NCBI RefSeq assembly: GCF_040802235.1
Contig: NW_027332182.1
Coordinates: forward strand, 310,001 to 374,000
Direction of reading: 5' to 3'
Length of the DNA stretch: 64,000 nt
Source: Manis javanica
Taxonomy: Eukaryota; Chordata; Mammalia; Pholidota; Manidae
Shown here: positions 9,427 through 57,131 of the stretch, one piece after another
Layout: every line of letters starts with the position of its first letter
How positions within the stretch are numbered: position 1 is the first letter of the stretch
Notes under the pieces: generated by a model
The model's database searches: none
Told to the model about the DNA's origin: nothing
What the model saw: the letters and a program-made list of their open reading frames with translations, nothing else
Program-made: the position numbers and the translations under genes

Positions 9427-9437
9427 AAAAGTAAGCA

Positions 9438-9929
9438 TAAAAGCCACAGTGCATAAATCTTCAAAGTAAAAAGCTAACCTTCTCAAAGAATATTGCTTCT
9501 CTCACTTACCAACTTTACATTTCCCTGTATGGCCCCGGAAGATGACTGGTTAGCCAGAGACATGTAAGATTCCTCAAGGGAGGAACAACCTAAGACAGGC
9601 ACAGTCGCAGGGGGGCCATCAGGTGAGAAATTGGGGATCAAGAGAGGTGAGGCTTAGAACCTCACACCCCCCTGTTTTGACAGAAATCTTCTGCATCCGT
9701 GAATATTTTGTTGCCCTTGTATAGCTTGGATGAATACTTATTCTACAGGCACAGACCTGATCATCTACATTTGCCCTCTTACAGCACTAAATTATGTTTT
9801 CTACCTTTATCTTGCATCTACCTACCACTTCAGCATTTTATTAAAAAAATAATAATAATAAGGGAGAAATATGGGATTCACATATAAATCAAGTATAAAA
9901 ATAAAATAAATAATCATATCTGAAAAAAA
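9438..9929 (+). mobile_element. ERV-tail retrocopy A (5'-truncated, early poly(A))
   Basis: This is the Env-3' flank/CTE/U3 part of the tail also seen fused to L1 at 24171-25944. It starts about 110 bp before the CTE-like boxes (9559-9569 and 9587-9599). It ends in U3 at CATATCTG followed by a short A run rather than at the usual R end. An 11 bp duplication AAAAGTAAGCA flanks it (9427-9437 and 9926-9936), and the left site TTTTT/AAAAG fits the L1 endonuclease target. This copy has an AATAAA-type signal about 15 bases before its end (near 9905-9912), so the template was probably polyadenylated early. It was evidently reverse-transcribed from RNA by L1 machinery. Confidence 0.8.
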
Positions 9930-11465: not shown

Positions 11466-11483
11466 AAAAAAGAAACAATACAG

Positions 11484-12309
11484 AAGATACCTCAAGAAAA
11501 ATGCTGGGCATAGAAGCCACAGGGCATAAATATGCAAAGAAGTAAAAAGCTAACCTTTTCAAACAATATGGCTTCTCTCTCACTTATCAACTTTACATCT
11601 CCCTGTATGGCCCCGGAAGATGACTGGTTAGCCAGAGACATGTAAGATTCCTCAAGGGAGGAACTACCTAAGACAGGCACTGATGCAGGGTTCCATCAGG
11701 TGAGAAATTGGAGATCAACAGTTGTGAGGCTTAGAACCTCAAACCCCCTGTTTTGAGAGAAATATTCTGCATCCGTGGAGGTTTTACTGCCCTTGTCTAG
11801 CTTGGATTAACACATAGTCTACAGGCACACACCTGATCATCTACATTTGCTCTCTTACAACACTAAACTATGTTTTCTACGTTTATCTTGCATCTACCTA
11901 CCACTTCAGCATTTTATTTAAAATAAATATAATAATAATAATAAAGGGAGAAATGTGGGATCCACATATAAATCAAGTATAGAAATAAAACGAATATTCA
12001 TATTTGACCTGATTGTTTATAGTTCATAATGCGTGATCAAAACCGAAAGTTTCTGTGATGAATGCTCTTGTACTGTTCACCATGTAAGAATTTATTCACT
12101 ATGTAAGAATTTGTTCATCATGTAAGAACTTGTTCATTATGCTTCAGAAGATTGGAGACTGATGAGAATTAGGCTTGGAGTGGATTAATGATTGTGTATT
12201 GAGCATTGACACCCCTATACATAATTTTATTGTTGTTAACCATTTGATCAATAAATATGAGAGATGCCCACTCAAAAAAAACCCAAATAAATAAATAAAT
12301 AAATTATTA
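11484..12309 (+). mobile_element. ERV-tail retrocopy B with target-site duplication
   Basis: The copy starts just upstream of the segment beginning GATACCTCAAG, runs through the CTE-like boxes (11637-11647 and 11665-11677), U3 and the R end. It finishes with AATAAATATGAGAGATGCC and an A-rich tail that has decayed to AAAT repeats (to 12309). An 18 bp duplication, AAAAAAGAAACAATACAG, is at 11466-11483 and 12310-12327, preceded by TT on both sides, as expected for L1 endonuclease cutting at TT/AAAA. It lies about 350 bp upstream of the intact OR start. It is diverged from the other tails but keeps all landmarks downstream of env. Confidence 0.85.
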
Positions 12310-19340: not shown

Positions 19341-22300
19341 ACCATGTGAGTCCACAGATCTCCCAACACAAGGGACCCAAGGAGGACAACACCAAGACAT
19401 GTAATAATTAAAATGGCAAAGATTAAGGACAAGGACAGAGTCGTAAAAGCAGCCAGAGAGAGAAAAAAGAATATCTACAAAGGAAAACCCATCAGGCTAT
19501 CATTAGACTTCTAAGCAGAAACCTTACAGGCCAGAAAGGAGTATCATGGCACATTCAGTGCAATAAAGCAGAAGGGCCTCAAACCAGGAATACTCTACCA
19601 AGTAAGATTATCATTTAAATTTGAAGGAGGGATTAAACAGTTCCCAGATAAGCAAAATTTGAGGGAATTTGCCCCCATATACCATCTCTACAGTGTATTC
19701 TAAAGGGACTGATCCAGATGGTAGTGTGCCTAAGGCTAAATAGCTGTCGCCAGAAAAAATAAAACCACAGAAAAGAAAGTAGACCAATTAAATATAAATG
19801 AAACACAAAATAAAATGAGTTAGCCACAAAGTCACTCAAGGGATACACAAAGAGTACAGAATATGCCACCTACCATATAAAGAGTGGAGGAGGAAGAAAA
19901 AGAAGGGAGAGAAAAAAGAATCTTCAGACTATGTTTGTAATAGTTTAATAAGTCACCTAAGGTAGACTATTACATAGTAAAGAAGGTGCCCTTGAACATT
20001 TGGTAACCATAAATCTAAATACTGCAATGGCAATAAGTACATATCTATCAATAATCACCCTAAGTGTAAATGGACTGAATGCATCAATCAAAAGACATAT
20101 TACAGAACAGATAAAAAAGCAAGACCCACCTTTGTGCTGCCTACAAGAGACTCACCTCAAACCTGAAGGCATGCACAGACTAAAAATGAAGGAATCGAAA
20201 AGATATTTCATGCAAAAATAGGGAGAAAAAAGTATGTTTTGGAGTACTTGTATCAGACAAATTAGACTTCAAAACAAAGAAAGTACCAAGAAACAAATAA
20301 GGACATTACATAATTATAAAGGGGTCAGTTCAACAAGAGGATATAACCATTAAAAATAACTATTCACCCAATAAAGGAGCACCTACATATGTGAAAAAAA
20401 TACTAACAGAATTAAAGGGGGAAATAGAAATCAATGCATTCATTCTAGGATACTTCAACACACCACTCACTCCAAAGGAGAGATCAGCAAGACAGAAAAT
20501 AAGTATGGGCACAGAGGCACTGAACAGCACATTAGAACAGATGGAACTAACAGACAACTATAGAACACTCCATCCAAAAGCAGCAGGTTGCACTTTCTTC
20601 TCAAGTGCATATGGACCATTTTCCAAAAGAGACCACACACTAGGCCACAAAAAGAGACTCAGTAAATTCAAAAAGATTGAAATCCTACCAACCAACTTTT
20701 CAGACCACAGAGGTATAAAACTAGAAATAAATTGTACAAAGAAAGCTAAAAGGCTCACAAACACATGGAGGCTTAACAACATGCTCCTAAATAATCAATG
20801 GATCAATGACCAAATCAAAATGGAGATCCAGCAATATATGGAAACAAATGACAACAACACAAAGCACCAACTATTGTGGGATACAGAAAAAGCAGTCTTA
20901 AGAGGAGAGTATATAGCAATCCAGGCATATTTTAAAAAGGAAGAACAATCCCAAATGAGTGGTCTAATGTCAGAATTATCAAAATTGGAAAAAGAAGAAC
21001 AAATGAGGCCTAAGGTCAGCAGAAGGAGGGACATAATAAAGATCAGAGAATAAATAAATAAAATTGGGAAGAATAAAAGAATAGCAAAAGTCAATGAAAC
21101 CAAGAGCTGGTTCTTTGAGAATATAAACAAAATAGATAAGCCTCTAGCCAGACTTATTAAGAGGAAAAGAGAGTCAACACACATCAACAGAATCAGAAAC
21201 AAGAAAGGAAAAATCACGATGGATCACACAGAAATACAAAGAATTATTAGAGAGTACTATGAAAACCTGTATGCTAACAAGCTGGGAAACCTAGGAGAAA
21301 TGTACAGCTTCCTAGAGAAATACAAACTTTCAAGACTGACCCATAAAGAAAAAGAATATCTAAACAGACCAATTACCAGAAGCGAACTTGAAGTGGTGAT
21401 CAAAAACCTACCCAAGAACAAAACCCCCAGGCCAGATGGATTCACCTCGGAATTTTATCAGACATACAGGGAAGACATAATACCCATTCTCCTTAAAGTT
21501 TTCCAAAAAATAGAAGAGGAGGGAATACTCCCAAACTCATTCTATGAAGCCAACATCACCCTAATACCAAAACAAGGCAAAGACCCCACCAACAAAGAAA
21601 ACTACAGATCAATATCCCCGATGAACATACATGCAAAAATACTCAACAAAATATTGGCAAACCGAATTCAAAAATACATCAAAAGGATCGTACACCATGA
21701 CCAAGTGGGATTCATCCAGGGATGCAAGGATGGTACAACATTCAAAAATCCATCAACATCATCCACCACAACAACAAAAAGAAAGACAAAAACCACATGA
21801 TCATCTCCATAGATGACAAAAAAGCATTAGACAAAAATTCAACAACCATTCATGATAAAAACTCTCAGCAAAATGGGAATAGAGGGCAAGTACCTAAACA
21901 TAAAAAAGGCCATTTATGATAAACCCACAGCCAATATTATACTGAACAGCGAGAAGCTGAAAGCTTTTCCTCTGAGATCGGGAACTAGACAGGGATGCCC
22001 ACTATCCCCACTGTTATTTAACATAGTACTGGAGGTCCTAGCCACGGGAATCAGACAAAATAAAGAAATACAAGACTCCAGATTGGTAATGAATAAGTTA
22101 AACCATCACTATTTGCAAATGACATGATATTGTACGTAAAATTCCCTAAGGACTCTAACCCAAAACTACTAGAACTGATATCGGAATACAGCAAAGTTTC
22201 AGGATACAAAATAAACACACAGAAATCTGTGATTTCCTATGCACTAACAATGAACCAATAGAAAGAGAAATCAGGAAAACAACTCCATTCACAATTGCAT

Positions 22301-24170
22301 CAAAAAGAATAAAATACCTAGGATTAAACCTAACCAAAGAAGAGAAAGACTTATACTGTGAAAATTACAAGTCACTCTTAAGAGAAATTAAAGGGGACAC
22401 TAAGAAATGGAAAGTCATCCCATGCTCGTGGCTAGGAAGAATTAATACTGTCAAAATGGCCATCTTGCCCAAAGCAATATACAGATTTGATGCAATCCCT
22501 ATGAAACTACAAGCAACATTCTTCAATGAATGGGAACAAATAATTCAAAAATTCATATGGAAACACCAAAGACCCCGAATAGCCAAAGCAAACCTGAGAA
22601 AGAAGAATAAAGTAGGGGGGATCTCACTCCTGAACTTCAAGCTCTACTATAAAGCAATAGTAATCAAGACAATTTGGTACTGGCACAAGAACAGAGCTAC
22701 AGACCAGTGAAACAGAGTAGAGACGCCAGACATTTACCTAGACATATATGATCAGTTAATATTTGATAAAGGAGCTGTGAACATACAATGGGGAAATGAC
22801 AGTCTCTTCAACAGATGGTGCTTGCAAAACTGGACAGCTACATGTAGGAGAATGATCCTGGACCATTGTCTAACCCCATGTACAAAAGTAAACTCAAAAT
22901 GGAACAACGACCTGAATGGAACTCATGAAACCATTAAACTCTAGGAAAAAAACATATTAAAAACCTCTTAGACATAAACATGAGTGACCTCGTCTTGATC
23001 ATATCTCCCTGGGCAATGAAAAGAACAGCAATAATGAACAAGTGGGACTATATAAAGCGGGAAAGCTTCTATACAGCAAAAGACACCATCAATAGAACAA
23101 AAAGGGACCCTACAGTATGGGAGAATATATTTGTAAATGACAGATCCAATAAAGGCTTGATGTCCAAAATCCATAAAGAGCTCACACGCCTCAACAAACA
23201 AAAAACAAATAATCCAATTAAAAAATGGGCAGAGGAACTGAACAGATAGTTCTCCAAAAAAGAAATACAGATGGCCAAAGGACATGAAAAGATGCTTCAC
23301 ATGGCTAATTATCAGAGAAATGCAAATTAAAACTACAATGAGGTATCAACTCACACCTGTAAAGATGGCTGCCATCCAAAAGACAAACAACATATGTTGG
23401 TGAGGCTGTGGAGAAAGGGTATCCCTCCTACACTGCTGGTGGGAATGTAAATTAGTTCAACCATTGTGGAAAGCAGTATGGAGGTCCATCAAAATGCTCA
23501 AAACAGAGTTAGCATTTGACCCAGGAATTCCACTCCTAGGAATTTAACCTAAGAACACAGCAATCAAGTTTGAGAATTACAGATGCACCCCTATGTTTAT
23601 CGCAGCACTATTTACAATAGTCAAGAAATGGAAGCAACCTAAATGTCCACCGATAGATAAATGGATAAAGAAGATGTGGTACATATACACAATGGAATAC
23701 TACTCAGCCACAAGAAGAGGGAAATTCCTACCGTTTACAACAACATGGATGGAGCGGAGGGTATTATGCTCAGTGAAATAAGCCAAGCAGAGAAAGAGAA
23801 ATAGCAAATGATTTCACTCATCTGTGGAGTATAAGAACAAAGGAAAAACTGAAGGAACAAAACAGCAGTGGAATCACAGAACCCAAAAATGAACTAACAG
23901 GTACCCAAGGGAAAGGGACTGGGGAGGATGGGTGGGTAGGGAGGAATAAGGGTGGGGAAGAAGAAGGGGGATATTAAGATTAGCATGCATAATGGGGAGT
24001 TCGGAGAAAGAGGAGAGTTGTACAACACAGGGTACACAGGTAGTGATTCTACAACATTTTGCGATGCTGATGGTCAGTGACTGTAAAGTGGTTTATAGGG
24101 CCGAGCTGGTATAGGGGAGAGCCTAGTGAACATAATATATTCTTCATGTAAGTTTAGATTAATGATAACC
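19341..24170 (+). mobile_element. LINE-1 body of chimera copy 1 (5'-truncated in ORF1)
   Basis: The L1 starts in the ORF1 C-terminal domain (a piece of the form PQTRNTLPSK and GIKQFPDKQNLREF near 19560-19680). It then contains ORF2: endonuclease (about 20030-20900, broken; SKRDHTLGHK-like at 20391-21053), RT (21219-22130), C-terminal domain (22456-22710, 22980-23249) and 3' UTR to about 24170. Stops and frameshifts divide ORF2. The RT catalytic FADD motif reads FAND at 22112-22123, removing the first catalytic aspartate. L1 retrotransposes by target-primed reverse transcription; this copy cannot. Its 3' end does not stop in poly(A) but continues through an A-rich stretch into the ERV-derived tail at 24171. 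Confidence 0.9.
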
Positions 24171-24573
24171 AAAAAAAGAATAGAAAGAAAGAAAAGGGGG
24201 ATTACTCCCTGATAGGATAAAACTAACTGTAAATCAGCGATTAATGCATGCTTTAAATATCCTTAATTTTGATCACTTAAAGGGTGTCATGATGGCTATA
24301 GAGGTGCATTTTTCTGATAATATTCCTTTCTCTTAAAAAAAAAAAGCAGTTCCTGTGTGGTGACCTCCAATTAGTTCTACACAATGGTATAAAGGGCATA
24401 TCAAAGTTTGGGCAAAGAGTCTGTTTGTGTTTATACAGATGATCAAAGCATAATTTGGCTACCCAGAAAATGAACTAAGATACAATATGAAGAAGAACTT
24501 TCAGCATCAGCACTCTCTGGAAGAGTCATACCAGAAGATGATCATCAAAAATCCTCAACAAATATACAGGCGC

Positions 24574-25009
24574 TGCTACAGCTGTAGCTGCATTCATCCC
24601 ACCGGTTCCTGGACTTGCCATGGGAATGAAGAAGGAGATATCTAAGCTGGCCTGTGCATACAGTAAAACAACAAATTTGACTGGATCTATACTGTTGGAA
24701 CTCAACCAAGAATTAGGAGAAGTGCAAGTTGTAGCACTCCAAAATCTTACATCTACAGACTATCTACTGTTAAAAGAACATATGGGATGTGAACAGTTCC
24801 CAGGAATGGGTTGCTTTAATTTGCCTGATTTCTCTCAGACGGTTCAAGTACATTTGGACAATATCCATCATATCATAGATAAGTTTTCACAAATGCCTAG
24901 GATGCCTAACTGGTTTTCTTGGTTTCACTGGATATGGCTGGTAATTATAGATCTGCTTTGGTTATGTAACTGTATTCCTATTATGTTAATGTGTGCACAA
25001 TTTAATTAG
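24574..25009 (+). pseudogene. env: Retroviral Env TM fragment in chimera copy 1
   Basis: An open stretch encodes a hydrophobic Ala/Pro-rich fusion-peptide-like segment, a heptad-like helix (ELNQELGEV), an immunosuppressive-domain-like segment beginning LQNLT, a cysteine pair CEQFPGMGC, a short ectodomain with WFSWFHW and a membrane span (WLVIIDLLWLCNCI). CX6CC family members have two adjacent Cys; here the first of the pair is Gly. The organisation is that of an alpha/gamma-type TM subunit. No SU precedes it; integrase-like sequence lies directly upstream. It has no cellular start context, so I treat it as a passenger in the L1 tail. Confidence 0.75.
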
Positions 25010-25339
25010 TAGTTTAAAACCTATACATGCTTAAGTTACTCTACGAGAAGATATGTCAAAGAAATAATCAATCTTCCCATGTTTTCTTCCATCTGCTACG
25101 TCTATAGCTTTTCTTATTCCTTCCTAATTACAACCCTTTAATAGAATTCGTGCCTCATATTGAATTTACCGAGTTCCTCCAAGTGGTATAGATAGCTTAA
25201 GACAAATGCTGGGCAAAGAAGCCACAGGGCATAAATCTGCAAAGAGTAAAAAGCTAACCTTTTCAAACAATATGGCTTCTCTCTCACTTACCAACTTTAC
25301 ATTTCCATGTATGGCCTTGGAATATGGCTGGTTAGCAGA

Positions 25340-25380
25340 GATGGGTAAGATTCCTCTAGGGAGGAACAACCTAAGACAGG
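25340..25380 (+). promoter_or_regulatory. CTE-like boxes in chimera copy 1 tail
   Basis: GATGGGTAAGA (25340-25350) and AACCTAAGACAGG (25368-25380), both identical to the type D retrovirus CTE boxes apart from one base. They lie between Env and U3. Only one clear unit is visible, whereas the viral element has two, so strength of export function is uncertain. Confidence 0.65.
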
Positions 25381-25944
25381 TACAGTCGCAGGGGGGCCAT
25401 CAGATGAGAAATTGGGGATCAACAGAGGTGAGGCTTAGAACCTCACCCCACCCTGTTTTGAAGAAATCTTCTGCATCTGTGGATGTTTTATTGCCCTTGT
25501 CTAGCTTGGATTAACACATAGTCTACAGGCACACACCTGATCATCTACATTTGCTCTCTTACAACACTAAACTATGCTTTCTACCTTTATCTTGCATCTG
25601 CCTACCACTTCAGCGTTTTATTAAAAATAATAATAATAAAGGGAGAAATGTGGGTTCCACATATAAATCAAGTATAAAAATCAAATATTCATATTTGACC
25701 TGATTGTTTATAGTTCATAATGCATGATCAAAACCAAAAGTTTCTGTGACGACTGCCCTTGTACTGTTAACCATGTAAGAACTTGTTCATTATGCTTCAG
25801 AAGTTTGGAGACTGACGAAAATTAGGCTTGGGGTGGATTAATGATCGTGCATTGAGCATTGACTCCCCTATACAGAATTTTATTGTTGTTAACAACGATT
25901 AGATCAATAAATATGAGAGATGCCCTCTCAAAAAAAAAAAAAAA

Positions 25945-40575: not shown

Positions 40576-41168
40576 TTTTTTTTTGAGAGGGCATCTCATA
40601 TTTATTGATCTAATGGTTCTTAACAACAATAAAATTCTGTATAGGGGACTCAATGCTCAATGTACAATCATTAATCCAACCCGTCTAATTCTCATCAGTC
40701 TCCAATCTTCTGAAGCATAACGAACAAGTTCTTACATGGTGAATAAGTTATTACATAGTGAATAAGCTACATGGTGAACAGCAGAAGGGTAGTCATCACA
40801 GAAACTTTCAGTTTTGATCATGCATTATGAACTATAAACAATCAGTTCAAATATGAATATTCGTTTGATTTTTATACTTGATTTATATGTGGATACAGCA
40901 TTTCTATCTTTATTAATATTATTTTTAATAAAATGCAGAAGTGGTAGGTAGATGCAAGATAAAATTAGAAAACATAGTTTAGTGTGGTAGGAGAGCAAAT
41001 TTAGATGATCAGGTGTGTGCCTGTAGACTATGTGTTAATCCAAGCTAGACAAGGGCAATAAAACATCCATGGATGCAGAATATTTCTTTCAGAAGAGGGC
41101 GGGTGAGGTTCTAAGCCTCACCTCTGCTGATCCCCAATTTCTCATCCAATGGCCCCCCTGCAATGGTG

Positions 41169-41209
41169 CCTGTCTTAGGTTGTTCCTCCCTAGAGGAAGC
41201 TTACCCATC
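41169..41209 (-). promoter_or_regulatory. CTE-like boxes in chimera copy 2 tail
   Basis: On the - strand GATGGGTAAG (41209-41200) and AACCTAAGACAGG (41181-41169). Spacing is the same as in copy 1. Confidence 0.65.
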
Positions 41210-41524
41210 TCTGGCTAACCAGTCATCTTCCGGAGCCATACAGGGAAATGTAAAGTTGGTAAGTAGGAGAGAGGCAATACTGTTTGAAAAGGTTAGCTTT
41301 TTACTTCTTTGCAGATTTATGCCCTGAGGCTTCTATGTCCAGTATTGGTCTTGAGGTATCTTTACCACTTGCAAGAATTATGGTACTCAGTAAATTCGAT
41401 ATAAGGAACGAGTTGTATTTAAGGGTTGTAATTAGGAAGGAAAAAGTAAAGCTATAGGAGTAGCAGATGGAAGATCACATGGGAAGATTGATTATTTCTT
41501 TGACATATCTTCTTGTAGAGTAAC

Positions 41525-41990
41525 TTAAGTATGTATAGGTTTTAAACTACTAATTAAATTGCATACACACATTAACATAATAGGAATACAGTTACATTCC
41601 CAGAGCAGACCTATAATTACCAGCCATCTCCAGTGAAACCAAGAAAACCAGTTAGGCACCCTAGGCATTTGTGAAAACTTATCTATGATATGGTGGATAT
41701 TGTCCAACTGAACTTGAACAGTCTGAGAGAAATCAGAAAAATTAAAACAACCCATTCCTGGGAACTGTTCACATCCCATATGTTCTTTTAACAGTAGATA
41801 GTCTGCGGTTGTAAGATTCTGGAGTGCTACAACATGCACTTCTCCTAATTCTTGGTTGAGTTCCAACAGTATAGATCCAGTCAAATTTGTTGTTTTACTG
41901 TATGCACAGGCCAGCTTACATGTCTCCTTCTTCATTCCAATGGCAATTCCAGGAACCAGTGGGATGAATGCAGCTACAACTGCAGCATCG
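41525..41990 (-). pseudogene. env: Retroviral Env TM fragment in chimera copy 2
   Basis: An open stretch of about 136 codons encodes the same TM as copy 1: ELNQELGEV helix, LQNLT segment, CEQFPGMGC, WFSWFHW and a membrane span. It shares with copy 1 the Gly in place of the first of the paired cysteines and LQNLT, both different from copy 3 (LQNRA, VCC). That points to a common source element for copies 1 and 2. Confidence 0.75.
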
Positions 41991-42388
41991 CCTGGACTTT
42001 GTTAAGGTTCTTTGATGATCATCTTCTGGTATGACTCTTCCAGAGAGTGCTGATGTTGGAAGTTCTTCTTCATATCGTATCTTAGTTCATTTTCTGGGTA
42101 GTCAAATTAGGCTTTGATCCTCTGTATAAACACAAAGAGACCCTTTGCCCAAATTTTGACATGCCCTTTTTACCATTGTGTAGAACTCATTGGAGGTCAC
42201 CACACCGGAACTGCTTTTTTTTTTTTTAAGAGAAAGGAATATTATCAGAAAAATGTACCTCCATAGTCGATCATCTGACACCCTTTAAGTGATCAAAATT
42301 AAGTATATTTAAAGCATGCATTAATCATTGATTTACAGTTATTTTTATCCTATCAGGGAGTAATCACCCTTTACTTTCTTTTTTTTTG

Positions 42389-44555
42389 TCATTAATCTAC
42401 ACTTACAAGAAGAATATTATGTTTACTAGGCTCTCCCCTATACCAGATCCCCCCTATAAACCACTTTACAGTTACTGTCCATCAGCATAGCAAAATGTTG
42501 TAGAATCACCACTTGTCTTCTCTGTATTGTACAGACCTCCCCTTTCTCCCTCCCCCCATGCATGCTAATCTTAATACCCCTCTTCTTATTCTCCCCCCTT
42601 ATCCCTCCCTACCCACCCAATCCTCCACAGTCCCTTTCCCTTTGGTACCTGTTAGTCCATTTTTGGGTTCTGTGATTCTGCTGCTGTTTTGTTTCTTCAG
42701 TTTTTCCTTTGTTCTTATGCTCCACAGATGAGTGAAATCATTTGCTATTTCTCTTTCTCTGCTTGGCTTATCTCACTGAGCATAATACCCTCCGCTCTAT
42801 CCATGTTGTTGCAAATGGTAGAATTTGCCCTCTTCTTATGGCTGAGTAGTATTCCATTGTGTATATGTACCACATCTTCTTTATCCATTCTTCTACCAAT
42901 GGACATTTAGGTTGCTTCCAGTTCTTGGCTATTGTAAATAGTGCTGCAATAAACATAGGGGTGCATCTGTATTTCTCAAACTTGATTGTTGCATTCTTAG
43001 GTTAAATTCCTAGGAGTGAAATTCCTGGGTCAAATGGTAAGTCTGTTTTGAGCATTTTGATGAACCTCCATACTGCTTTCCACAATGGTTGAAATAATAT
43101 ACATTCCCACCAACAGTGTAGGAGGGATCCCCTTTCTCCACAGCCTCACCAACATTTGTTGTTGTTTGTCTTTTGGATGGCAGCCATCCTTTCTGGTGTG
43201 AGGTGATTCCTCATTGTAGTTTTAGTTGACATTTCTCTGATAATTAGCGATGTGGAGCATCTTTTCATGTGTCTGTTGGCCATATGTATTTCTTTTCTGG
43301 AGAACTGTCTGTTCAGTTCCTCTGCCCATTTTTTAATTGGGTTATTTGTTTTTTGTTTGTTGAGGCATGTGAGCTCTTTATATATTCTGCACATCAAGTC
43401 TTTATCGGATCTGTCATTTTCAAATATATTCTCCCATACTGTAGGGTTCCTTTTTGTTCTATTGATGGTGTCTTTTGCTGTAAAGAAGCTTTTCAGCTTA
43501 ATATAGTCTCACTTGTTCATTTTTGCTTTTGTTTTCCTTGCCCAGGGAGATATGTTCAAGAAGACGTCACTCATGTTTATGTCTAAAGGGTTTTTGCCTA
43601 TATTTTTTTCTAAGAGTTTTATGGTTTCATGACTTTCATTCAGGTCTTTGATCCATTTTGAATTTACTTTTGTGTATGTGGTTAGACAATGGTCCAGTTT
43701 CATTCTCCTACATGTAGCTGTCCAGTTTTGCCAGCTCCATCTGTTGAAGAGACTGTCATTTCACCATTTTATGTCCATGGCTCCTTTAACAATATTAATT
43801 GAACATATATGTTTGGGTTAATGTCTGGAATCTCTAATCTGTTCCACTGGTCTATGACTCTGTTCTTGTCCCAGTACCAAATTGTCTTGATTACTATGGC
43901 TTTGTAGTAGAGCTTGAAGTTGGGGAGTGAGATCCCCCCTACTTTATTCTTCTTTCTCAGAATTGCTTTGGCTATTCGGGGTCTTTGGTGTTTCCATATG
44001 AATTTTTGAATTATTTGTTCCAGTTCATTGAAGAATGTTGCTGGTAATTTGAGAGGGATTACATCAAATCTGTATATTGCTTTGGGCTGGATTGCCATTT
44101 TGAGGATATTAATTCTTCCTAGCCAAGAGCATGGGATGAGTTTCCATTTGTTAGTGTCCCCTTTAATTTCTCTTAAGAGTGTCTTGTAGTTTTCAGGGTA
44201 TAGGTCTTTCCCTTCTCTGATTAAGTTTAGTCCTAGGTATTTTATTCTTTTTGATGCAATTGTGAATGGAATTGTTTTCCTGATTTCTCTTTCTATTGGT
44301 TCATTGTTAGTGTATAGGAAAGCTACTGATTTCTTTGTGTTAATTTTGTATCCTGCAACTTTGCTGTATTCCTATATCAGTTCTAGTAGTTTTGGTGTGG
44401 AGTCTTTAGGGTTTTCTATGTACAATATCATATCATCTTCAAATAGTGACAGTTCAACTTCTTCTTTACCAATCTGGATTCCATGTTTTTATTTGTTTTG
44501 TCTGATTGCCATGGTTAGGACCTCCAGTGCTATGTTAAATAACAGTGGGGAGAGT
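42389..44555 (-). mobile_element. LINE-1 body of chimera copy 2 (left arm)
   Basis: On the - strand this is L1 from mid RT of ORF2 (beginning at ACTGTTATTTAACATAGCAC near 44550) through the C-terminal domain (44098-43769, 43397-43146, 42956-42768) to the 3' UTR end at 42389. The catalytic motif reads FEDD (near 44436-44447). It is cut by the 5' LTR of the provirus at 44556 and its 5' part is not found on the other side of that provirus. Confidence 0.85.
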
Positions 44556-44899
44556 TTTGGGAGCAGGCTATGCCCTTCCCACACTTGCTGATATGGCGGG
44601 AATGGAGAACAAAGAATATCCTGTTCACGCATCCCAGGAGCAACTGACGGAGCCCTGCTGTGCCTACCTTTGCCCGGCTACCACTGACATCAATACTGTG
44701 CTTGATTGTCTATTGGATAATGCTATGTCCTGTAATCATGTAACCCCACTGCATTATATAAACCCTGGACCTTCATTAAAGTTTTACTGGTGATGCGTGG
44801 GAGCATCAGCCCTTTCAGTTCTTTCTGTCTTTCTTTATTTTCTTTTCCTCCCTTCCGCAGTTCAGGACCTGTTCGACTAGGCGCAGCTGGACCGCGTCA
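44556..44899 (+). repeat. 5' LTR of the betaretrovirus-like provirus
   Basis: 344 bp, aligns end to end with the 341 bp 3' LTR at 52293-52633 with about 40 differences counted by eye. It ends in GTCA just before the primer binding site. A TATA box (TTATATAAA region, 44753-44762) and an ATTAAA signal (44775-44780) mark U3/R. The first bases read TTTTGGGAG in place of TGTTGGGAG in the 3' LTR. The divergence implies an old insertion, if the LTRs belong to the same integration. Confidence 0.9.
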
Positions 44900-44901
44900 A
44901 G

Positions 44902-44919
44902 TGCTGCCCGAACAGGGAC
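44902..44919 (+). promoter_or_regulatory. Primer binding site, tRNA-Lys type
   Basis: TGCTGCCCGAACAGGGAC differs from the complement of the tRNA-Lys3 3' end at two positions. It starts two bases after the LTR. Lys-primed elements are common among beta- and lentiviruses. Confidence 0.8.
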
Positions 44920-45022
44920 CTGAAGGAGAGGGAGAAGGTGAGGGCCACCACGTCAAGAAGAGAAAGCCCTGGTCAAGGTAACCAGAAAAGATGCCCAAGA
45001 GAAGAGGCGCACAAGCAACGTG

Positions 45023-45036
45023 GAAGTGGTAAGTGA
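45023..45036 (+). promoter_or_regulatory. Probable major splice donor of the provirus
   Basis: GTGGTAAGTG in the leader matches the 5' splice-site consensus and lies between the primer binding site and gag. It could supply the 5' exon of env mRNA. Confidence 0.45.
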
Positions 45037-45054
45037 TTTTTCTGCAAGTCAAAT

Positions 45055-47167
45055 ACGGGACAGGCAAGAAGCAAACAGTTTTATGTCTGTGGGTTGAAGA
45101 AATTATTGGCTGTTAGGGGAATTAAAGTAGGGAAGCCCCAACTAGAAAGATTTTTAGACTTTATTAAGGAAGTCTGCCCATGGTTTCCAGAAGACAGGAC
45201 AGTAGACACAGATTTATGGAATAAAGTAGGAGAGAAATTACAAACTTATTATTCTTCACACGGACCAAAAAGGTTTCCAGTAGATACTTTTGGACTGTGG
45301 ACCGTGATTAGAGATTCTTTAGATCTTAAGCACAAAGGATTTACGATATAAAATGTGAAAGAGGATGCCCTTGGTACAGATCAGGCCGCTGAGGAAAACA
45401 AAAGCAATCTTGCTTCTTCAGCCATTTCCCCATCTGCTCCACCATTGGAGGTGCCAGGAAGGCGGGAGCCATCCTATCACAAACTGGACAGCGGCTCAGA
45501 CGAGGAAGTGGAGGAGAGACAGAGCCTTCTAGTGGAGGAAGCTTTAGATCAACTTTGTGATAAGGAGGCACAGACAATAGAGACAGCCTCCATAGGCTCT
45601 AGCAAGAAAGTTTATCCATCCCTGCTTGCAGCAATGTGGACAATCACCACAGACACATTTGGAATACCTTTTGAAGAGCCATGGAATGAAATTCAGGGCA
45701 CCCTGAAGCGGCTTACTTTAGCCTAAGAAGCACAGCAAAAGATGGGATAGCCACACCCCGAGAGAAGAGACTCCCCTGTGAGTAAGGCTGAAACAGCTCC
45801 CCTTGAAAAGGCAGGTTCTGATCCTATTCAGCCTACATCCTCAGAAAAAAGTAAAGAGAAAACAGTGGAGCGAAAGACAGAGAAGGGTTTAGAGCAGAAA
45901 GAAAAACAGCCTGTAGAGTCTAAGAAAGAAAATCCTCATGTGCTTCCAGTTAATATGCAGAAGAGACAGAGAAATGTTACTCCTCTTGAGGCAGTACTAC
46001 AACAAGCTCAAGATCAGGGAGAGGACACACAAGAATTTTTTGCCTATCCAGTGTTAGAACAGCCAGGTGACAATGGAGAGGTATTCAGACAACATGTGCC
46101 ATTTCCTTTCAAACAGTTAAAAGAGCTGAAAGAGGCCTGCAATAAATATGGCCCCACTGCTCCTTTACATTAACCATCTTAGAAGCTATGACTACAGAGG
46201 CTTTTCCCGTGGGAGACTGGAAGTCCTTAGCACATGCATGTCTTACAGGGGGAGATTATCTGCTATGGAAATCAGAATTTTATGCGAATTGTCAGAAAAC
46301 AGCTAGGACTAATGCTGCTCAGAAAATACCCATTGTTTTTGACATGTTGGCAGGAGAGGACCAATATGCTGAGGTGGATCAACAGTTGGTCTTTCAGTTA
46401 GCAGTATATGCTCAAACAAATGTGGCAGCTAGAAGAGCTTGGAAGGCTCTCCCAGAAAGTACTAGTAGAACAGAGGAGGTCTCTAAGATCAGGCAAGGGC
46501 CTGATGAGCCATTTCAAGAATTTGCAGCTCACCTATTGAAGACAGCAGGGAGAACATTTGGAGAATAAGAGGCTAGTACCACCCTAGTCACAAGTTGGCT
46601 TATGAGAATGCCAACAGTGCCTGCCAAGCTGTCTTAAGGCCATTTTGGAAAAAGGCCACCTTATCAGATTACATTCGCTTATGTTCAGATATAGGGCCAT
46701 CCTATACCCAGGGGTTAGCTATGGCAGCAGCGCTGCAAGGGAAGTCCATCAAAGAAGTTATGCTTCTGCAGACCAGATCTCGTGGGTGTTAGGGTCCTGC
46801 CGGTGCATGCTTTAATTGAGGACAGATGGGACATATAGCCAGACAATGTCCACGAGCCTCCAGGTCTCCAGCTAATCAAGGAGGTGAGGCTACACTGCAG
46901 CTTTGTCTTGGGTGTAAAAAAGGAAAACATTGGGCAAAGGACTGTAGATCAAGATTTGATAAAGATGGCCATCCCCTACAGGGAAACTGGCAGAGGGGCC
47001 AGCCCGAGGCCCCGAACAAACAATGCTATGGGGCGCTGCAGGAGACCACAGAGAATCAGGCTTCTGAGAGTCAGGTTCTAAGCAGCGGAAATCCATTCAA
47101 GACCTCTTTCAAGCTACCTCAGGGAGCACAAGGCTGGACCTCAGTTCCACCGCCTACACAGTATTAA
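45055..47167 (+). pseudogene. gag: Betaretrovirus-like gag, start codon lost and frame broken
   Basis: The frame starts with ACG (45055-45057) followed by GGA CAG, so a Met-Gly-Gln myristoylation start has lost its ATG. A matrix-like domain follows (KKLLAVRGIKV, FLDFIKEVCPWFP). Stops occur at 45349-45351, 45724-45726 and 45748-45750, all in the same frame, then frameshifts after 46173 and about 46568. Capsid contains a major homology region (QGPDEPFQEFAAHL, about 46493-46535). Nucleocapsid has two CX2CX4HX4C knuckles: 46808-46849 with its second Cys replaced by TGA (46817-46819), and 46904-46945 intact. Gag forms the virion core in living relatives; this one cannot be translated whole. Confidence 0.85.
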
Positions 47168-47941
47168 CACCAGAAATGGGCATGCAAGCCCTTCCTACAG
47201 GGGTCTATGGGCCGTTACCTCTAGAGACAGTAGGATTATTGCTGGGAAGAAGTAGTAACACCATGAAAGGATTACATGTTGCCCCAGGTGTAATAGATGC
47301 AGATTATATAGGTGAAATTAAAGTCATGACACACTCTCCCCAAGGCATATTAGTAATCCCCTCTGGACAAAGGGTAGCACAACTAATATTGCTCCCCGTA
47401 ATATCTGTGGGAAGAACTGTCACCACAAGCCCTAGAAAAGATGGAGGCTTTGGTTCTTCAGAAGCTTATTGGATCCAAGAGATCAAACAGAATAGACCCC
47501 AACTAGAGTTGAAAATCCAAGGAATGTGGTTCAAAGGAATCCTAGATACAGGGGCAGATGTTTCTTGTATAGCAGACATTCATTGACCATCTGCTTGGCC
47601 CTCACAGCAAACACTTACAGAGCTCTGAGGCATAGGTCAGTCTCAATCACCTCTACAAATTTCTGATATATTAACCTGGGAAGATTCTGAGGGACAGATA
47701 GGTACTTTTCAGCCATATATTGTACCACGGTTACCTATAAATCTATGGGGTAGAGATGTCATGTCTGAGATGGGAGTTTATCTATATAGTCCCTCTGCTC
47801 AAGTTTCACAACAGATGTTTAACCAAGGACTCCTTCCACAACAAGGGCTAGGTAGCAATAACCAAGGTATTGTGGAACCCCTTCCATTAGCACTAAAACA
47901 AGACAGAAGAGAATTAGGGTATTTTCCTCAAGGGCCATGAT
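47168..47941 (+). pseudogene. pro: Betaretrovirus-like pro: dUTPase and protease with G-patch
   Basis: The first part (47176-47410) is a dUTPase domain: MGMQALPTGVYGPLPLETVGL, LLGRSS, GVIDADYIGEI and PSGQRVAQLILLP. It is followed by an aspartic protease with active site DTGAD at 47545-47559. A TGA shortly after (about 47584-47586) and another near 47628 break it; the frame then carries on with INLWGRDVM and a glycine-rich [10 protein letters not shown]-patch (about 47845-47875). The order dUTPase-protease-G-patch before pol is characteristic of betaretroviruses. Confidence 0.85.
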
Positions 47942-50512
47942 CTTGCCTGTTCTCCATGCAGACTTTATTCACTGGAAAAGCGATGAGCCAGTGTGGATAG
48001 ATCAGTGGCCCTTGTCCAAGGAAAAAATTGCAGCAGCTCAGTTGTTAGTTCAGGAGCAATTGGATAAAGGTCATACTACTTCCTCTACATCTCCTTGGAA
48101 CTCCCCTATATTTGTTATTAAGAAAAAATTAGGAAAGTGGAGGCTGTTGCAAGACTTGAGGAAAGTGAATGAAACTATAGAAGTGATGGGAGCTCTTCAA
48201 CCTGGGCTGCCCCATGCTGCAGCTATTCCAAATAATACCTATAAAATAGTATTAGACCTAAAAGACTGCTTTTATACTATTCCCTTAGCCCCACAAGATT
48301 GTAAAAGATTTGCTTTTAGTGTCCCGAGTACGAATCTTCAAGAGCCTATGAAAAGATATCAATGGCTAGTTTTGCCTCAAGGCATGGCCAACAGCCCGAC
48401 CTTGTGTCAGAAGTATGTGTCTGCAGCTATACTTCCCATTCATACATAATTTCCTCAAATATAAACCATCCACTATATGGATGATATTCTCTTAGCTTCC
48501 CAGGAACAGAAAATCCTGCTTGAAGCTTATTCTGCCCTGCAGACATCTTTGTCAGAGTGAGGTCTTGTTATAGCTCCTGAGAAAGTGCAGACAGTTAACC
48601 CATTTTCCACTTTTTAGGTTATAAATTGTACCATCACAAAATTAGACCCCAAAAGATAGAATTGAGAAAAGATCAGTTGAAGACTTTGAATGATTTTCAG
48701 AAACTGCTAGGGGATATGAATTGGTTGAGGCCTTCATTAGGAATCACCACTGGTGAACTAAAGCCTCTATTTGATGTGTTGCAGGGAGATCCAGATCCAA
48801 ACTCACCTAGAGAACTTACTCCGCTGGCCAAGACTGCTCTGTTGCGTGTAGACCAGGCCATTACACAACAGCGACTGACATATTTTTATTACAATAAACC
48901 TTTAGAAGCTTACATTTTTGCTACCAAACATTCCCCCACTGCGGTCCTTTGGCAAGGATAAGGTCCGCTTCGGTGGCTACATTTAGCAGTTTCACCTCAA
49001 AGATCATTAACTCCTTTTCATGATGCAGTGGCAACTTTAATACAGGAGATAAGGTCAGAAGCCAGAAAATATTTTGGATTTGAACCATCTATAATCGGTG
49101 TTCCTTTCACAAAACAACAGATAGATTGGCTCTTACAAAACACAGATGCATTTCCCATCGCTTTGGCTGATTTTATGGGAGTAGTAGATAATCATTACCC
49201 TCAGGTGAAACTACTCCAGTTTGCTCAACTTCAAGAATTTGTATTCCCACACATAATTTCTTCCACACCTGTTGAAGGTGCACCCACCATCTTCACGGAT
49301 GGCTCCAGCAATGGCACGGCTGTGTATGTGGTGCATGGCAAGGCTTTTTCACACCATACCACTCCAGCTTCAGCACAAGTGGTAGAACTGCATGCTGTGG
49401 CTTTAATTCTGCTCCACTTTTTGTCCTCATTTAATCTCTACTCTGACAGCCAGTATGTAGTCAATGCAGTCTCCCGACTGGAGACTGTTCCTCTCATTGA
49501 CACTTCTACTACAGCCATCCAGCAGCTTTTTGTACAGATACAGTATTTGCTTCAACAGCGGACAGAGTGCTGTTATATAGGTCACATACGTGCTCACACT
49601 GTGTTACCTGGTCCTTTGACTGCAGGTAATGCATTAGCTAATGCAGCCACGCGCTGCGTAGGCCTTACACAAATAGAAAAGGCTACGCACTCTCACTCAT
49701 TACATCATCAAAATAGTCATAGTCTTCACAAATATTTTCACATCACTAGAGAAGCTGTGAGACAAATTGTTAAAAGATGCTCAACCTGCCCTGAGCATTT
49801 CAACCTTCCACAACTTGGTGTAAACCCTCGTGGCCTCCTGCCAAATCACCTGTGGCAGATGGATGTCATGCACATCCCTGAATTTGGAAAATTAAAATAT
49901 GTTCATGTTACCATTGACACCTATTCAGGTTTCTTGCATGCTACCGCTCTCTCTGGAGAATCCACTTCACAAATTATTCACCATTGCCTCTCTTGCTTTG
50001 CTGTTATGAGCATTCCAAGGCTGATTAAAACCGACAGTGGATCTGGCTATACCAGTAGCTGCTTTTGCACATTTTGTGCGCAATGGGGTATTGCCCACAA
50101 GACAGGCATCCCCTATAATCCCCAGGGCCAAGGCATTGTTGAAAGAGCCCATGGCACTTTAAAAACCCAGCTCAATAAAATTAAGAAGGGGGAGTTATAC
50201 CCAGTTACACCTTTAAATTATTTATCCCATGCACTATATATTTTAAATTTTTTAACTCTAGACCTTGCAGGACGCAGTTCCGCAGAGCGCTTTTGGTGCT
50301 CTAGTGGTCATCCGTCCTTCGCACAGGTGCGATGGAAGGATCCTCTTACCAGGGCATGGCAAGGTCCAGATCCCGTCCTTCTTTGGGAGCGAGGACACGT
50401 TTGTGTCTTTCCACAGGATGCTGAGGGCCTGAGGTGGTGGCCAGAAAGGCTGGTGCGTCATGCAGACCATATTACTCCTGACCCTGCTCCAGCTTTGGAG
50501 GACCCCAGCTGA
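47937..50512 (+). pseudogene. pol: Betaretrovirus-like pol: RT, RNase H, integrase
   Basis: RT starts around 47937 with [26 protein letters not shown] and YMDD at 48474-48485, but stops after 48449 and a frameshift before 48626 break it. From 48626 one frame continues to the TAA-ended C-terminus at 50512 with a single stop at 48959-48961. RNase H shows FTDGSS, ELHAV and YSDSQYV. Integrase has an HHCC zinc region (HKYFHITREAVR to CSTC) and a complete D-D-E triad at 49862-49864, 50033-50035 and 50141-50143, the last two with the canonical 35-residue spacing. About 500 codons are open at the 3' end. The C-terminus overlaps env by 53 bases. Confidence 0.9.
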
Positions 50513-52073
50513 AGAGCAAGCAGTTCAGTGCATATATTGGGCATATGTTCCTGACCCTCCTCTGCTCCATCCAGTCAGTTGGAAGTCTCCTGAGGTACAT
50601 ATCTACTCCAATGATTCTGACATTTTGGGAGGACCTGTCGTCCACGCGCATCTACAATGCCGGTTGTATAATTATACAGGCCTAGGATGAGGGACTCCGA
50701 TGTGCTTCTTTAAAAATGATTGCAATGACATCACTTACTTAAATAATCACAAGCCTGGCTGTTTAACACTTCAGTCTTGAAATGTGTGGGACTGGACCGC
50801 TCTGGGTCACCAACTCACTGTCATGCTCTGGACGCCCATTGGAACACTAGTAATAGGAGCAACGGCACCTTGCCTTTACATCATCATCTTTAATTAAAAA
50901 TGACACATTGCCATTACCCTGGACAAAGTGCAAGGGCTCCCCTTCACTTGTGAGCGCAGGTGGTGAATGGCCACAGCAGATGAACATCACTAAAGAACTT
51001 TACATTGTTGACTGGTCTTTAGGACCAAATTCAAAGACTCCAGCCCTGCAATACAGAGGACTCTTTATAGGACTTTGGTACACTCCAGATGGGTACTCTC
51101 AAACCTCTTGGTGGAAAATAGGGGCGGCTATGGGAGGATTAGATTGGCATAATAGTACAACCATTAATGTAAACAATGACACACATGTGACAGCTTGCGT
51201 TGCCCACCCCATGCGCTGTTGGTAGGGTCTATTTCCATAAATATGACTTCTCAGAAAAATATGTTTCACATTGCCTGTAAAAATTGCAGTCTCACTAGCT
51301 GCATCTCTTCTGTGTCCAACAATACCATAGTTATTTTACTTAAGCAACCCCCTTTCCTTTTGACTCCTGTGAACCACATGGGAGCTTCGTATGATGATAA
51401 GGGCCTGCAAGTGTTGATAGAATTGAAGAAAGCTCCAGACTGTCCCAAGAGAGCTGTGGACATCATTATTGTAGGGTTGTTGTCTTTAATTTCCTTTATT
51501 GTATCTTCTACTGTAGGGGCTGTAGTATTAACTGAGAATGTACAAACTGCTACCTATGTCAATAGTTTGACCCAAAATGCAACTCAGGCTCTTAAGGATC
51601 AAGGAAATATTGATGAGAAAATAAGTCATAAGCTTAATGCCCTGTATGACTTGGTCATGTATTTAGTCAAAGAGGTTCAGGGCCTGAGACTAAAGCACCA
51701 ATTGAAATGTCATGCAGCCTATAATGAAATTTGTGTCACATCTAAAGAGTATAATCAATCTAAGTTTAGTTGGGAAACGGTGAAAAATCACCTACAGGGC
51801 ATATGGCTTACTGACAACTTCACCAAAGATTTTCTGGACCTACATAAGGAGATACTTGACATGAAAAATGCAGAATTGTGATTTGATCCTGTTTAAACCA
51901 CTCAAGATATCCTAGACACCCTCAAGCATGCAGCCTCTCCCTTCGGCAAGTTGGGAGACTCGCCCCATTTTCTGTTATCCATTGTGACTGCTCTTCTATG
52001 TCTTCTTATAATGATATTATTGATACCTTGTGTTATTAAGCTTGGGTTAAAATCCCTCTTAAAGCTGGGTTAG
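50460..52073 (+). pseudogene. env: Betaretrovirus-like env, frameshifted
   Basis: ATG at 50460 opens with a hydrophobic signal peptide (QTILLLTLLQLW). SU is split by a stop at 50688-50690 and frameshifts, with pieces at 50908-51225 and from 51195. The TM part (51195-51881) has a basic CPKRAVD cleavage-like site, a hydrophobic fusion peptide, NSLTQNATQALK helix and a CX6-7C pair (KCHAAYNEIC). A stop at 51879-51881 separates the membrane span (LLSIVTALLCLLIMILLIPC, about 51975-52040) and tail. It resembles Env of betaretroviruses of the MMTV/HERV-K type rather than the CX6CC type. Cannot encode a whole glycoprotein. Confidence 0.85.
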
Positions 52074-52137
52074 CAAATTCATATGTTTCGCCTGAAACAA
52101 CAACCCCCATATGATACTATCAGAGAAAGACAGGATA

Positions 52138-52256
52138 GCCAATGATGGGTAAGCACCCTGGAGACTCTGGCAACCTAAGACAGGGCTTCCACAGGAGAGT
52201 GGGAGTACCAATGACGGGTAAGATCAGAGTTGCTGCCTTGGGGCAGCTAAGACAGG
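52138..52256 (+). promoter_or_regulatory. CTE-like RNA export element of the betaretrovirus-like provirus
   Basis: Two units as in the type D viral element: CCAATGATGGGTAAG (52139-52153) with CAACCTAAGACAGG (52171-52184), and CCAATGACGGGTAAGA (52208-52223) with AGCTAAGACAGG (52245-52256). Location between env and the polypurine tract is the same as in simian type D viruses. This is the most complete CTE-like element in the window. Export via NXF1 is inferred from the family. Confidence 0.8.
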
Positions 52257-52278
52257 CACTATCTTCATATTATAATAT

Positions 52279-52290
52279 AAAAAAGGGGGA
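52279..52290 (+). promoter_or_regulatory. Polypurine tract of the betaretrovirus-like provirus
   Basis: AAAAAAGGGGGA two bases before the 3' LTR start at 52293. Confidence 0.85.
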
Positions 52291-52292
52291 GA

Positions 52293-52633
52293 TGTTGGGA
52301 GTAGGCTATCCCCTTCCCCCACTTGCTGATGTGGCAGGAAAGGAGAACAAAGAACATCCTATTTACCCATTCCATGACCAACTGACGGAACCCTGCTGTG
52401 CCTACTTTTGCCCGGCTGCTGCTTACGTCAATACTGTGCTTGATTGTCTATTGGATAATGCTATGTCCTGGAACCATGTAACCCCACTACATTATATAAA
52501 CCCTGGAACTTCATTAAAGTTTTGCTCGCAATGCGCGGTAGCGTCAGCCCTCCCAGTTCTTTCTGTCTTTCTTTTCTTCGCCCCCCTTCTGCACTTCAGG
52601 ACCTGCTCGACTAGACGTGGCTGGACCGTGTCA
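52293..52633 (+). repeat. 3' LTR of the betaretrovirus-like provirus
   Basis: 341 bp, TGTTGGGAG ... GTCA, with TATA box at about 52492-52500. About 12% different from the 5' LTR by my count, including a 4 bp length change in U5. The base after the end (CTAAAC) does not match the sequence before the 5' LTR (GGAGAG), so no target-site duplication is present. Confidence 0.9.
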
Positions 52634-55330: not shown

Positions 55331-55724
55331 AAAAAAGAGAAAGAAAAGGGGGATTATTCTCTGATAGGATAAAAATAACTGCAAATCAACGATTAATGCA
55401 TGCTTTAAATATCCTTAATTTTGATCTTTTAAGGGGTGTCAGATGATCAGCTATGGAAGTACATTTTTCTGATTATATTCCTTTCTCTTAAAAAAAGAGC
55501 AGTTCCTGTGTGGTGATCTCCAATAAGTTATTCACAATGGTATAAATGTCACATCAAAGTATGAGCAAAGGGTTTGTTTGTGTTTATACAGAGGATCAAA
55601 GCCTAATTTGGCTACCGAGAAAACGAATCAAGATATGATATGAAGAAGAACTTCCAACATCAACATCCTGTGGAAGAGTCATTGCAGAAGATGAACATCA
55701 AAAAACTTCAATGAAGATCCTGGC

Positions 55725-56170
55725 GCTGCTGCAGTTGTAGCTGCAGTCATCCCAGCGGTTCCTGGACTTGCCATTGGAATGAAGAAGGAGATACCTAGGC
55801 TGTCCCGTGCATACAGTAAAACACCAAATTTGACTAGATCTATACTGTCAGAACTCAACCAAGAATTGGGAGAAGTGCAAGTTGCAGTGCTCCAAAATCG
55901 TGCGACTATAGACTATCTACTGTTAAAAGAATATATGGGGTGTAAACAGTTCCCAGGAGTGTGTTGTTTTAATTTGTCTGATTTTTCTCAAACTACTCAA
56001 ATTCAGTTAGACAATATAACATCCTATCATTGATAAGTTTTCACAAATGCCTAGGGCACCTAACTGGTTTTCTTGGTTTGACTTGATATGGCTGGTAATT
56101 GTAGGTCTGCTTTGGTTATGTATCTGTATTCCTATTATGATAATGTGTGTACACAATTTAATTAGTAGTT
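55725..56170 (+). pseudogene. env: Retroviral Env TM fragment in chimera copy 3
   Basis: Same TM as in copies 1 and 2 but with LQNRA and paired cysteines (GVCC), so it looks closer to the retroviral original. A small indel near 56025 shifts the frame and creates a stop before the WFSWFD segment and membrane span (about 56060-56150). Not translatable as a whole. Confidence 0.75.
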
Positions 56171-56509
56171 TGTTAAAACCTATACATGCTTATGTTACTC
56201 TACAAGAAGATATGTCAGAGAAATAATCAATGTTCCCATGTTTTCTTCTGTCTGCTACTTCTATAGCTTTTCTTCTTCCTTCCTAATTACAACCCTTCAG
56301 TAGAATTCCTGCCTCTTATAGAAAATTACCGAGTATCATAATTCTTCCAATTGGTAAAGATACCTCAAGACAAATGCTGGGCATAGAAGCCACAGGGCAT
56401 AAATCTGAAAAGAAGTAAAAAGCTACCCTTCTCAAACAATACTGCTTCTCTCTCACTTACCAACTTTACATTTCCCTGTATGGCCCCAGAAGATGACTGG
56501 TTAGCCAGA

Positions 56510-56550
56510 GACGGGCAAGATTCCTCAAGGGAGGAACAACCTATGACAGG
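56510..56550 (+). promoter_or_regulatory. CTE-like boxes in chimera copy 3 tail
   Basis: GACGGGCAAGA (56510-56520) and AACCTATGACAGG (56538-56550). Each box has one substitution relative to the consensus. Confidence 0.55.
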
Positions 56551-57131
56551 CACAGTCGCAGGGGAGCCATCAGGTGAGAAATTGGGGATCAACAGAGGTG
56601 AGGCTTAGAACCTCACGCTCCCTGTTTTGAGAGAAATCTGCATCCATGGATGTTTTGTTGCCCTTGTCTAGCTTGGATTAATACTTATTCTGTAGGCACA
56701 GACCTGATCATCTATATTTGCCCTCTTACAGCACTAAATTATGTTTTCTACCTTTATCTTGCATCTACCTACCACTTCAGCATTTTGTTAAAGAAGCATA
56801 ATAATAATAAGGTAGAAATGTGGGATTCACATATAAATCAAGTATAAAAATGAAACGAATAATCATATCTGACTTGATTGTTTATAGTTTATGATGTGTG
56901 ATCAAAATTGAAAGTTTCTGTGATATGACTGACCTTGCACTGTTCACCATGTAAGAACTTATTCACTGTGTAAGAACTTGTTCGTTATGCTTCAGAAGCT
57001 TGGAGACTGTTGAGAATTTGGCTTGGGGTTGATTAATGATGGTGCATTGAGTCCCCTATAAAGAACTTTTTTGTTGTTAACAACCATTTGATCAATAAAT
57101 ATGAGAGATGCCCTCTCAAAAAAAAAAAGTA

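Follow-up and report, generated by a model that had tools for sequence, protein, structure and literature searches.

An L1 lineage of Manis javanica that carries the 3' end of a retrovirus

The 64-kb stretch of Manis javanica DNA analysed here (64,000 nucleotides of contig NW_027332182.1, positions 310,001–374,000; 'the window') contains three copies of a composite element, in which a LINE-1 (L1) retrotransposon is followed by an A-rich stretch, a piece of retroviral sequence and a terminal poly(A). Comparing the window with itself and reading the three junctions directly, we see this arrangement at each of the places proposed by an earlier reading made from the letters alone (the 'sequence-only reading'): 24170, 42389 on the minus strand, and 55330. 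Working from 5' to 3', copy 1 (19341–25944, plus strand) comprises an L1 extending to about 24169; an A-rich linker between the L1 3' end and integrase (24170–24189); and a retroviral 'tail', made up of the C-terminal part of integrase through to the start of env (24190–24561), a 'scar' in the region of the surface subunit (SU) of Env (24562–24587), an open piece of the Env transmembrane subunit (TM; 24572–25006, 145 codons) and the U3-R portion of a 3' long terminal repeat (LTR; 25649–25929, with AATAAA at 25906–25911); the poly(A) occupies 25930–25944. Copy 2 (40576–44555, minus strand) consists of the 3' part of an L1, a junction near 42375 and a tail reaching to 40585, with poly(A) at 40584–40576; copy 3 (52634–57128, plus strand) likewise has an L1 3' part, a junction near 55340 and a tail to 57117, its poly(A) running to 57128. 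All three terminate in AATAAATATGAGAGATGCCCTCTC plus poly(A), two bases shorter in copy 2, and are 86–89% identical to each other across the L1 3' end and tail; past the poly(A), the sequence is unlike at each.

The L1 5' ends of the three copies do differ, as the sequence-only reading had noted, but simple 5' truncation does not account for those of copies 2 and 3, because they abut a different provirus (about 44555–52630) that cuts both. This beta-type provirus, which carries a gag/pro frameshift site at 46981–47035 (Rfam), lies between the two copies and is flanked by L1 3' parts in opposing orientation with no matching duplication; its site therefore looks rearranged. The 5' part of copy 1 is also unusual: up to about 21440 it is 0.77–0.94 identical to six full-length fused copies and thereafter 0.86–0.95, with about 120 extra bases near 19725–19848 in the diverged part. 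Judging by this divergence, positions 19341–21440 may belong to another L1 or be recombinant, the true start perhaps lying inside the range that we give for the copy.

Three further copies in the window consist of tail only, all on the plus strand and each bounded by a target-site duplication (TSD): 9438–9925, which stops within U3 at a short A run (AAAAGTAAGCA at 9427 and 9926); 11484–12309, with the R end and an A-rich end (AAAAAAGAAACAATACAG at 11466 and 12310); and 52758–53430 (AGAGAAATCAGG at 52746 and 53431). These TSDs measure 11, 18 and 12 bp respectively, and their scores were equalled by 4, 0 and 2 of the 300 windows drawn at random for each; maxima of 55 and 26 among these show that part of the random windows overlapped the actual site. 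The third copy sits inside the L1 of copy 3 and is therefore a separate insertion. In the first, the poly(A) falls within U3, after AATAAA-like bases apparently gained by mutation. All three begin at differing points of the tail, in the manner of 5'-truncated L1s.

Beyond the window, we searched its own assembly (2.56 Gb, 63 contigs). A 201-base probe spanning the L1–retrovirus junction gave 2,421 first-look candidates genome-wide, 40 of which were scored; every one of the 40 runs through the junction, covering 196–201 of the 201 bases at 91–100% identity, and the copies are spread over many contigs. With up to three mismatches allowed, the opening 40 bases of the tail were found at 4,138 genomic places and a 40-base piece of the end of the L1 3' untranslated region at 15,553 (reversed-pattern controls, 0 for both). 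The junction is thus neither restricted to the window nor embedded in shared flanking DNA—the two outcomes for which the sequence-only reading would have accepted local duplication—and its view of the copies as separate insertions stands. How regularly the tail accompanies the L1 was gauged from the first 100 exact L1 3' ends listed, all on contig 1: the tail starts within 130 bases of 25 of them (at most one mismatch), and among 20 fetched from the other 75 we see the same tail start, more diverged, in 17 and, in two, a tail deleted between its A runs (L052 and L056, perhaps a sub-lineage). Tail sequence is accordingly present on 44 of the 45 resolved L1s with the exact 3' end of the lineage, a count that covers exact ends only and has 55 of the 100 listed ends lying outside it.

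The 20 best-scoring junction matches were fetched with their flanks. Taking L014 as the yardstick for the L1 5' start, 13 of these loci (L014 included) come within 30 bases of it, and 11 of the 13 extend to the R end as well, five of these being interrupted by internal breaks or gaps. Full-length copies open with GGAGCCAAGATGGCGGC or close variants, a start that we take to resemble the YY1-site start of other L1s; at the opposite end, a recognisable R end followed by an A-rich stretch is present in 18 of the 20, L009 and L012 having no R end. When TSDs were scored against mismatched-pair controls in 18 tests (17 loci plus copy 2), the score exceeded every control in eight and tied in two, so that at least eight of the 18 bear out the individual duplications anticipated by the sequence-only reading. 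Loci L015 and L017 contain fused or tail-only copies in head-to-tail rows, as if new copies often enter the poly(A) of older ones.

Judged by its coding capacity, the carrier of the tail is an L1. In L014, the only copy searched, the ORF1 frame of 318 codons contains PF02994 and PF17490 (the L1 RBD and dsRBD domains) and ORF2 contains PF03372 (endonuclease) and PF00078 (reverse transcriptase), with 594 of 595 residues aligning to L1 ORF2p; it is because of these domains and this alignment that we make the assignment. Across the 12 copies examined, open frames of 317–318 codons occupy the ORF1 position in L011, L014 and L015, and none has an intact ORF2, the longest open frame being 595 codons. 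The features by which a LINE-1 is recognised—ORF1 domains, an ORF2 with endonuclease and reverse transcriptase, and TSDs plus poly(A) at new sites—are all found here.

The origin of the tail becomes apparent at loci where the R sequence does not end in poly(A). R followed by a non-A continuation occurs at 270 genomic places (simple-repeat endings included), and a longer R-U5 pattern at 175; ten such loci were fetched and compared with the tail. Two of them, L031 and L029, represent the 3' part of a provirus from integrase through U5; L038 spans TM to U5, L035 contains two tail copies, and the remaining six resemble the tail in the LTR or R end only. Both L031 and L029 continue unbroken through the point of fusion (TTATTAAAACGAAAAGGGGG and TTGTTAAAACAAAAAGGGGG), where they present a TT/AAAA motif (TTATTAAAAC and TTGTTAAAAC), and they are about 79% identical to the first part of the copy 1 tail (24190–24561). 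The piece of L029 that crosses the fusion point has 89 open codons and matches retroviral integrases (best E 1.1e-7), the best entries being 5cz1, 3jca, 7usf and 5cz2, presumably all integrase of mouse mammary tumour virus. Because this piece spans the junction point, the sequence that follows the A-rich linker is integrase; what the sequence-only reading took for a short flank common to the three copies is indeed shared, but is already retroviral.

Compared with L031 and L029, the tail is short of about 930 bp of SU. The breakpoint is identical in the 25 fused-type tails compared (one spurious row, from L028, was set aside), and a short ATCCTG/TCCTG match lies near both edges of the gap. Splicing was considered as a possible cause and the two edges were read with this in mind: on the left, L031 and L029 both lack a GT donor, and on the right, L038 alone has an AG. 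The TM piece resembles the TM of avian sarcoma/leukosis virus (E 1.8e-8), a protein search with it returning 44 TM relatives; Pfam gave no family for either the TM or the integrase piece. Between four older and 18 younger tails, compared over the part that is 24572–25929 in copy 1, TM shows 11 fixed-like differences, distributed 5, 2 and 4 over codon positions 1, 2 and 3, and a cysteine of the TM motif is absent from all 18 younger tails; from this spread, in small samples, we see no sign of selection on the frame as protein. After TM, the same groups show nine fixed-like differences in 924 columns, as against 11 within TM; this lower number might hint at constraint on U3-R or on the region discussed below as resembling a constitutive transport element (CTE).

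The two candidate 3' ends of the composite differ in their polyadenylation signals. In none of 23 copies is there an AATAAA within the last 60 bases of the L1 end, whereas the tail has one 18 nt ahead of its poly(A). Since the L1 ends without the signal and the tail possesses it, read-through of the L1 end to the LTR signal is likely on the evidence of these motifs; loss of the tail would have removed the AATAAA. As to the CTE-like element proposed by the sequence-only reading, a CTE being an RNA export element with a folded stem and paired internal loops, the predicted fold of 25319–25458 does contain a stem, but one (z -0.5) that is no more stable than shuffles of the tail sequence, 53 of 200 being equally stable; the z values for L031 and for the other provirus of the window are -1.4 and -2.5. 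A search of Rfam at gathering thresholds returned no CTE match, only the gag/pro frameshift site in that other provirus.

Taken together, these data make it probable that the lineage began when an L1 inserted in sense orientation into a provirus, was transcribed through to the LTR signal, and gave rise to a fused RNA that founded a lasting lineage. As a first step—one that we infer from the proviral relatives—an L1 would have entered a betaretrovirus-like provirus within its integrase gene, at the TT/AAAA site, which is of the type used by the L1 endonuclease. An L1 transcript would then have passed its own 3' end and continued through the remaining provirus, which may already have lacked the 930 bp or so of SU or may have lost them at this point; the RNA would have been cleaved after the AATAAA of the 3' LTR and reverse-copied in cis by the L1 proteins. 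New copies would thus have united L1 and retroviral tail in a single element some 8 kb long. In this way the tail would have turned into the 3' end passed down through a large L1 lineage, retained perhaps on account of the LTR poly(A) signal. The read-through into an endogenous retrovirus (ERV) and the use of its LTR signal had both been proposed by the sequence-only reading, and both are supported; its placing of the ERV 'nearby' calls for refinement, since proviral integrase runs through the junction at TT/AAAA and the L1 therefore most likely sat inside the integrase gene.

A number of observations weigh against such an origin. The sequence-only reading had pointed to a source locus where the ERV continues past R into U5; LTRs that do so were found, but an L1-bearing source was not seen among the 13 R-U5 loci examined. 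The proviral relatives are only about 75–82% like the fused tail in most pieces. The L1 end does carry weak signal variants (AGTAAA in 20 of 23 copies, 42 bases from the end, and ATTAAA in four of 23, 11 bases from it), and one of the 45 resolved L1 ends has no tail. TSD scores fell below the controls in eight of the 18 tests (of these loci, L013 has an imperfect repeat and L015 a repeat lying past a second, tandem tail), and the 20 fetched loci, as best-scoring matches, are not a fair sample. To these may be added a competing mechanism, taken up next, that predicts the same structure. Candidates for the source were tried and rejected: the pair C3:41266810 and C3:41280015, 13.2 kb apart, was considered as a provirus with an insert, and the fetched part, L029, has no L1 at the junction; L065–L067 look like solo LTRs.

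The competing mechanism is a template jump, in which the L1 reverse transcriptase would have started from the poly(A) of an ERV transcript, copied this as far as integrase and then switched to an L1 RNA at its poly(A) end; the resulting single chimeric insertion would have served as the source, with no L1 in the provirus at any stage. It accounts naturally for a join that falls precisely at the A-rich end of the L1, and poly(A)-ended ERV copies of processed appearance do occur. A second ERV end, 20 nt further on and followed by poly(A), was found at ten genomic places, six of which were fetched; three of these (L061, L063 and L064) are copies of the ERV family whose poly(A) follows 20 nt beyond CTCTC, L061 retaining the SU end, and by their structure are likely to be processed ERV RNAs copied by L1 in trans. 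The main point against the jump is that, on the proviral side, the join falls on a TT/AAAA site of L1 type, whereas a jump would require no such site; we regard the jump as rather unlikely. A further locus, L059 (C3:76134730–76136830, minus strand), has at about 1380–2035, in the direction of the L1, the 3' end of an older L1, some 160 bp of flanking sequence, an LTR of the same family that starts in U3 and stops 20 nt beyond CTCTC, and finally poly(A); its layout makes a second, independent L1-to-LTR read-through possible.

A different kind of alternative would treat the tail as a separate non-autonomous element, similar to SINE-R, that was acquired by L1s, or spread beside them, more than once. 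Three of the six window copies are tail-only, and in make-up (env end plus 3' LTR) the tail matches SINE-R as outlined in the relevant passages of PMC12593883. The tail-only copies nevertheless begin at varied points, like 5'-truncated L1s, and the fused-type tails share their single SU breakpoint. The joined copies tell the same story: in an alignment of 16 (seven of 23 were dropped, two with no recognisable R end and five with a short or rearranged L1), the order at the junction is identical in 16 of 16, with a linker of variable length and single base changes, and pairwise identity averages 0.942 in the L1 part, as against 0.939 in the tail. On these alignments the L1 part and tail are equally diverged, and so equally old, and separate acquisition appears very improbable. 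As for duplication of a single L1–ERV block, local or segmental, the occurrence of three copies within 40 kb is its one recommendation, and it is rejected as having practically no chance of being correct in view of a junction dispersed over many contigs, unlike flanks, individual TSDs and window copies just 86–89% alike.

Descent of the tail within one L1 lineage, as the read-through origin has it, can also be followed in a tree built from TM to R (34 sequences, rooted on L031, with no support values). The proviral copies L029 and L038 lie near the root, outside the remaining tails; the next branch is a tail of L035 with 20 nt of U5 ahead of its poly(A), after which come the tail-only and older window copies and then the others as a ladder. 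A ladder is the shape expected of a tail handed down over time within a single L1 lineage. Terminal branches measure about 0.02–0.065, which, at an assumed substitution rate of 2.2e-9 per site per year and for best-scoring copies only, would place the copies very roughly at 9–30 million years.

An autonomous L1 thus appears to have swapped its working 3' end for a retroviral piece and then succeeded, suggesting that a fragment of a virus can become a permanent component of a jumping gene that is self-sufficient. L1 lineages often change their 5' ends; the present case makes it testable whether their 3' ends set a limit to them, and the change has left datable fossils in their thousands. It is conceivable, and we put it forward tentatively, that by gaining the LTR poly(A) signal, and perhaps the putative CTE-like stem, the fused lineage became a chief L1 of this genome for millions of years, the retroviral RNA-processing parts serving as its working 3' end. 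Repeat annotation may list the fused copies as separate L1 and ERV fragments, and in the open-licence literature, with no repeat database searched, we found no report of an L1 lineage with a retroviral tail.

The closest general precedent is L1 3' transduction, which leaves an L1, an A-rich remnant, downstream DNA, a new poly(A) and TSDs, all of which are found here. It differs in that the transduced piece in our case is a retroviral 3' end with an LTR poly(A) signal of its own, and that a lineage numbering thousands of copies has inherited it as its 3' end; the L1 transduction families known to us are small.

Processed pseudogenes of HERV-W, as characterised in the parts of PMC5016936 that concern them, end in U3-R plus poly(A), lie at TT/AAAA motifs with TSDs of 5–15 bp and were made by the L1 machinery. 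The 3' end of the present element agrees with theirs, being that of a retroviral RNA ending in U3-R plus poly(A), while its 5' part is L1 rather than the R-U5 of a copy collinear with the ERV RNA; those ERV transcripts moved alone, whereas in our case the ERV end travels as part of an L1 RNA and has been inherited over many rounds. The chimeric L1 of mouse Axin1 (cL1) joins part of L1 ORF2 to an LTR and is alike to that extent, but, in the account taken from PMC6500023, is a designed construct mimicking such an event and not a natural lineage.

The nearest parallel in kind is SVA, defined in the portion of PMC12593883 on its structure by CCCTCT hexamers, an Alu-like part, a variable number of tandem repeats (VNTR) and a SINE-R derived from HERV-K10. 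According to that description, SINE-R comes from the 3' end of env plus the 3' LTR of HERV-K10 and has an A-tail at its end, so that the same retroviral piece serves as the 3' end of an element moved by L1. Our element does not belong to SVA: 5' of the tail we find L1 instead of hexamers, Alu or VNTR, and the likeness is one of kind at the 3' end. SVA is non-autonomous, whereas the carrier here is an L1 with ORF1, endonuclease and reverse transcriptase, and its tail begins in integrase; the parallel with SINE-R therefore indicates that env-U3-R arose as the 3' end of an L1-moved element in two kinds of element.

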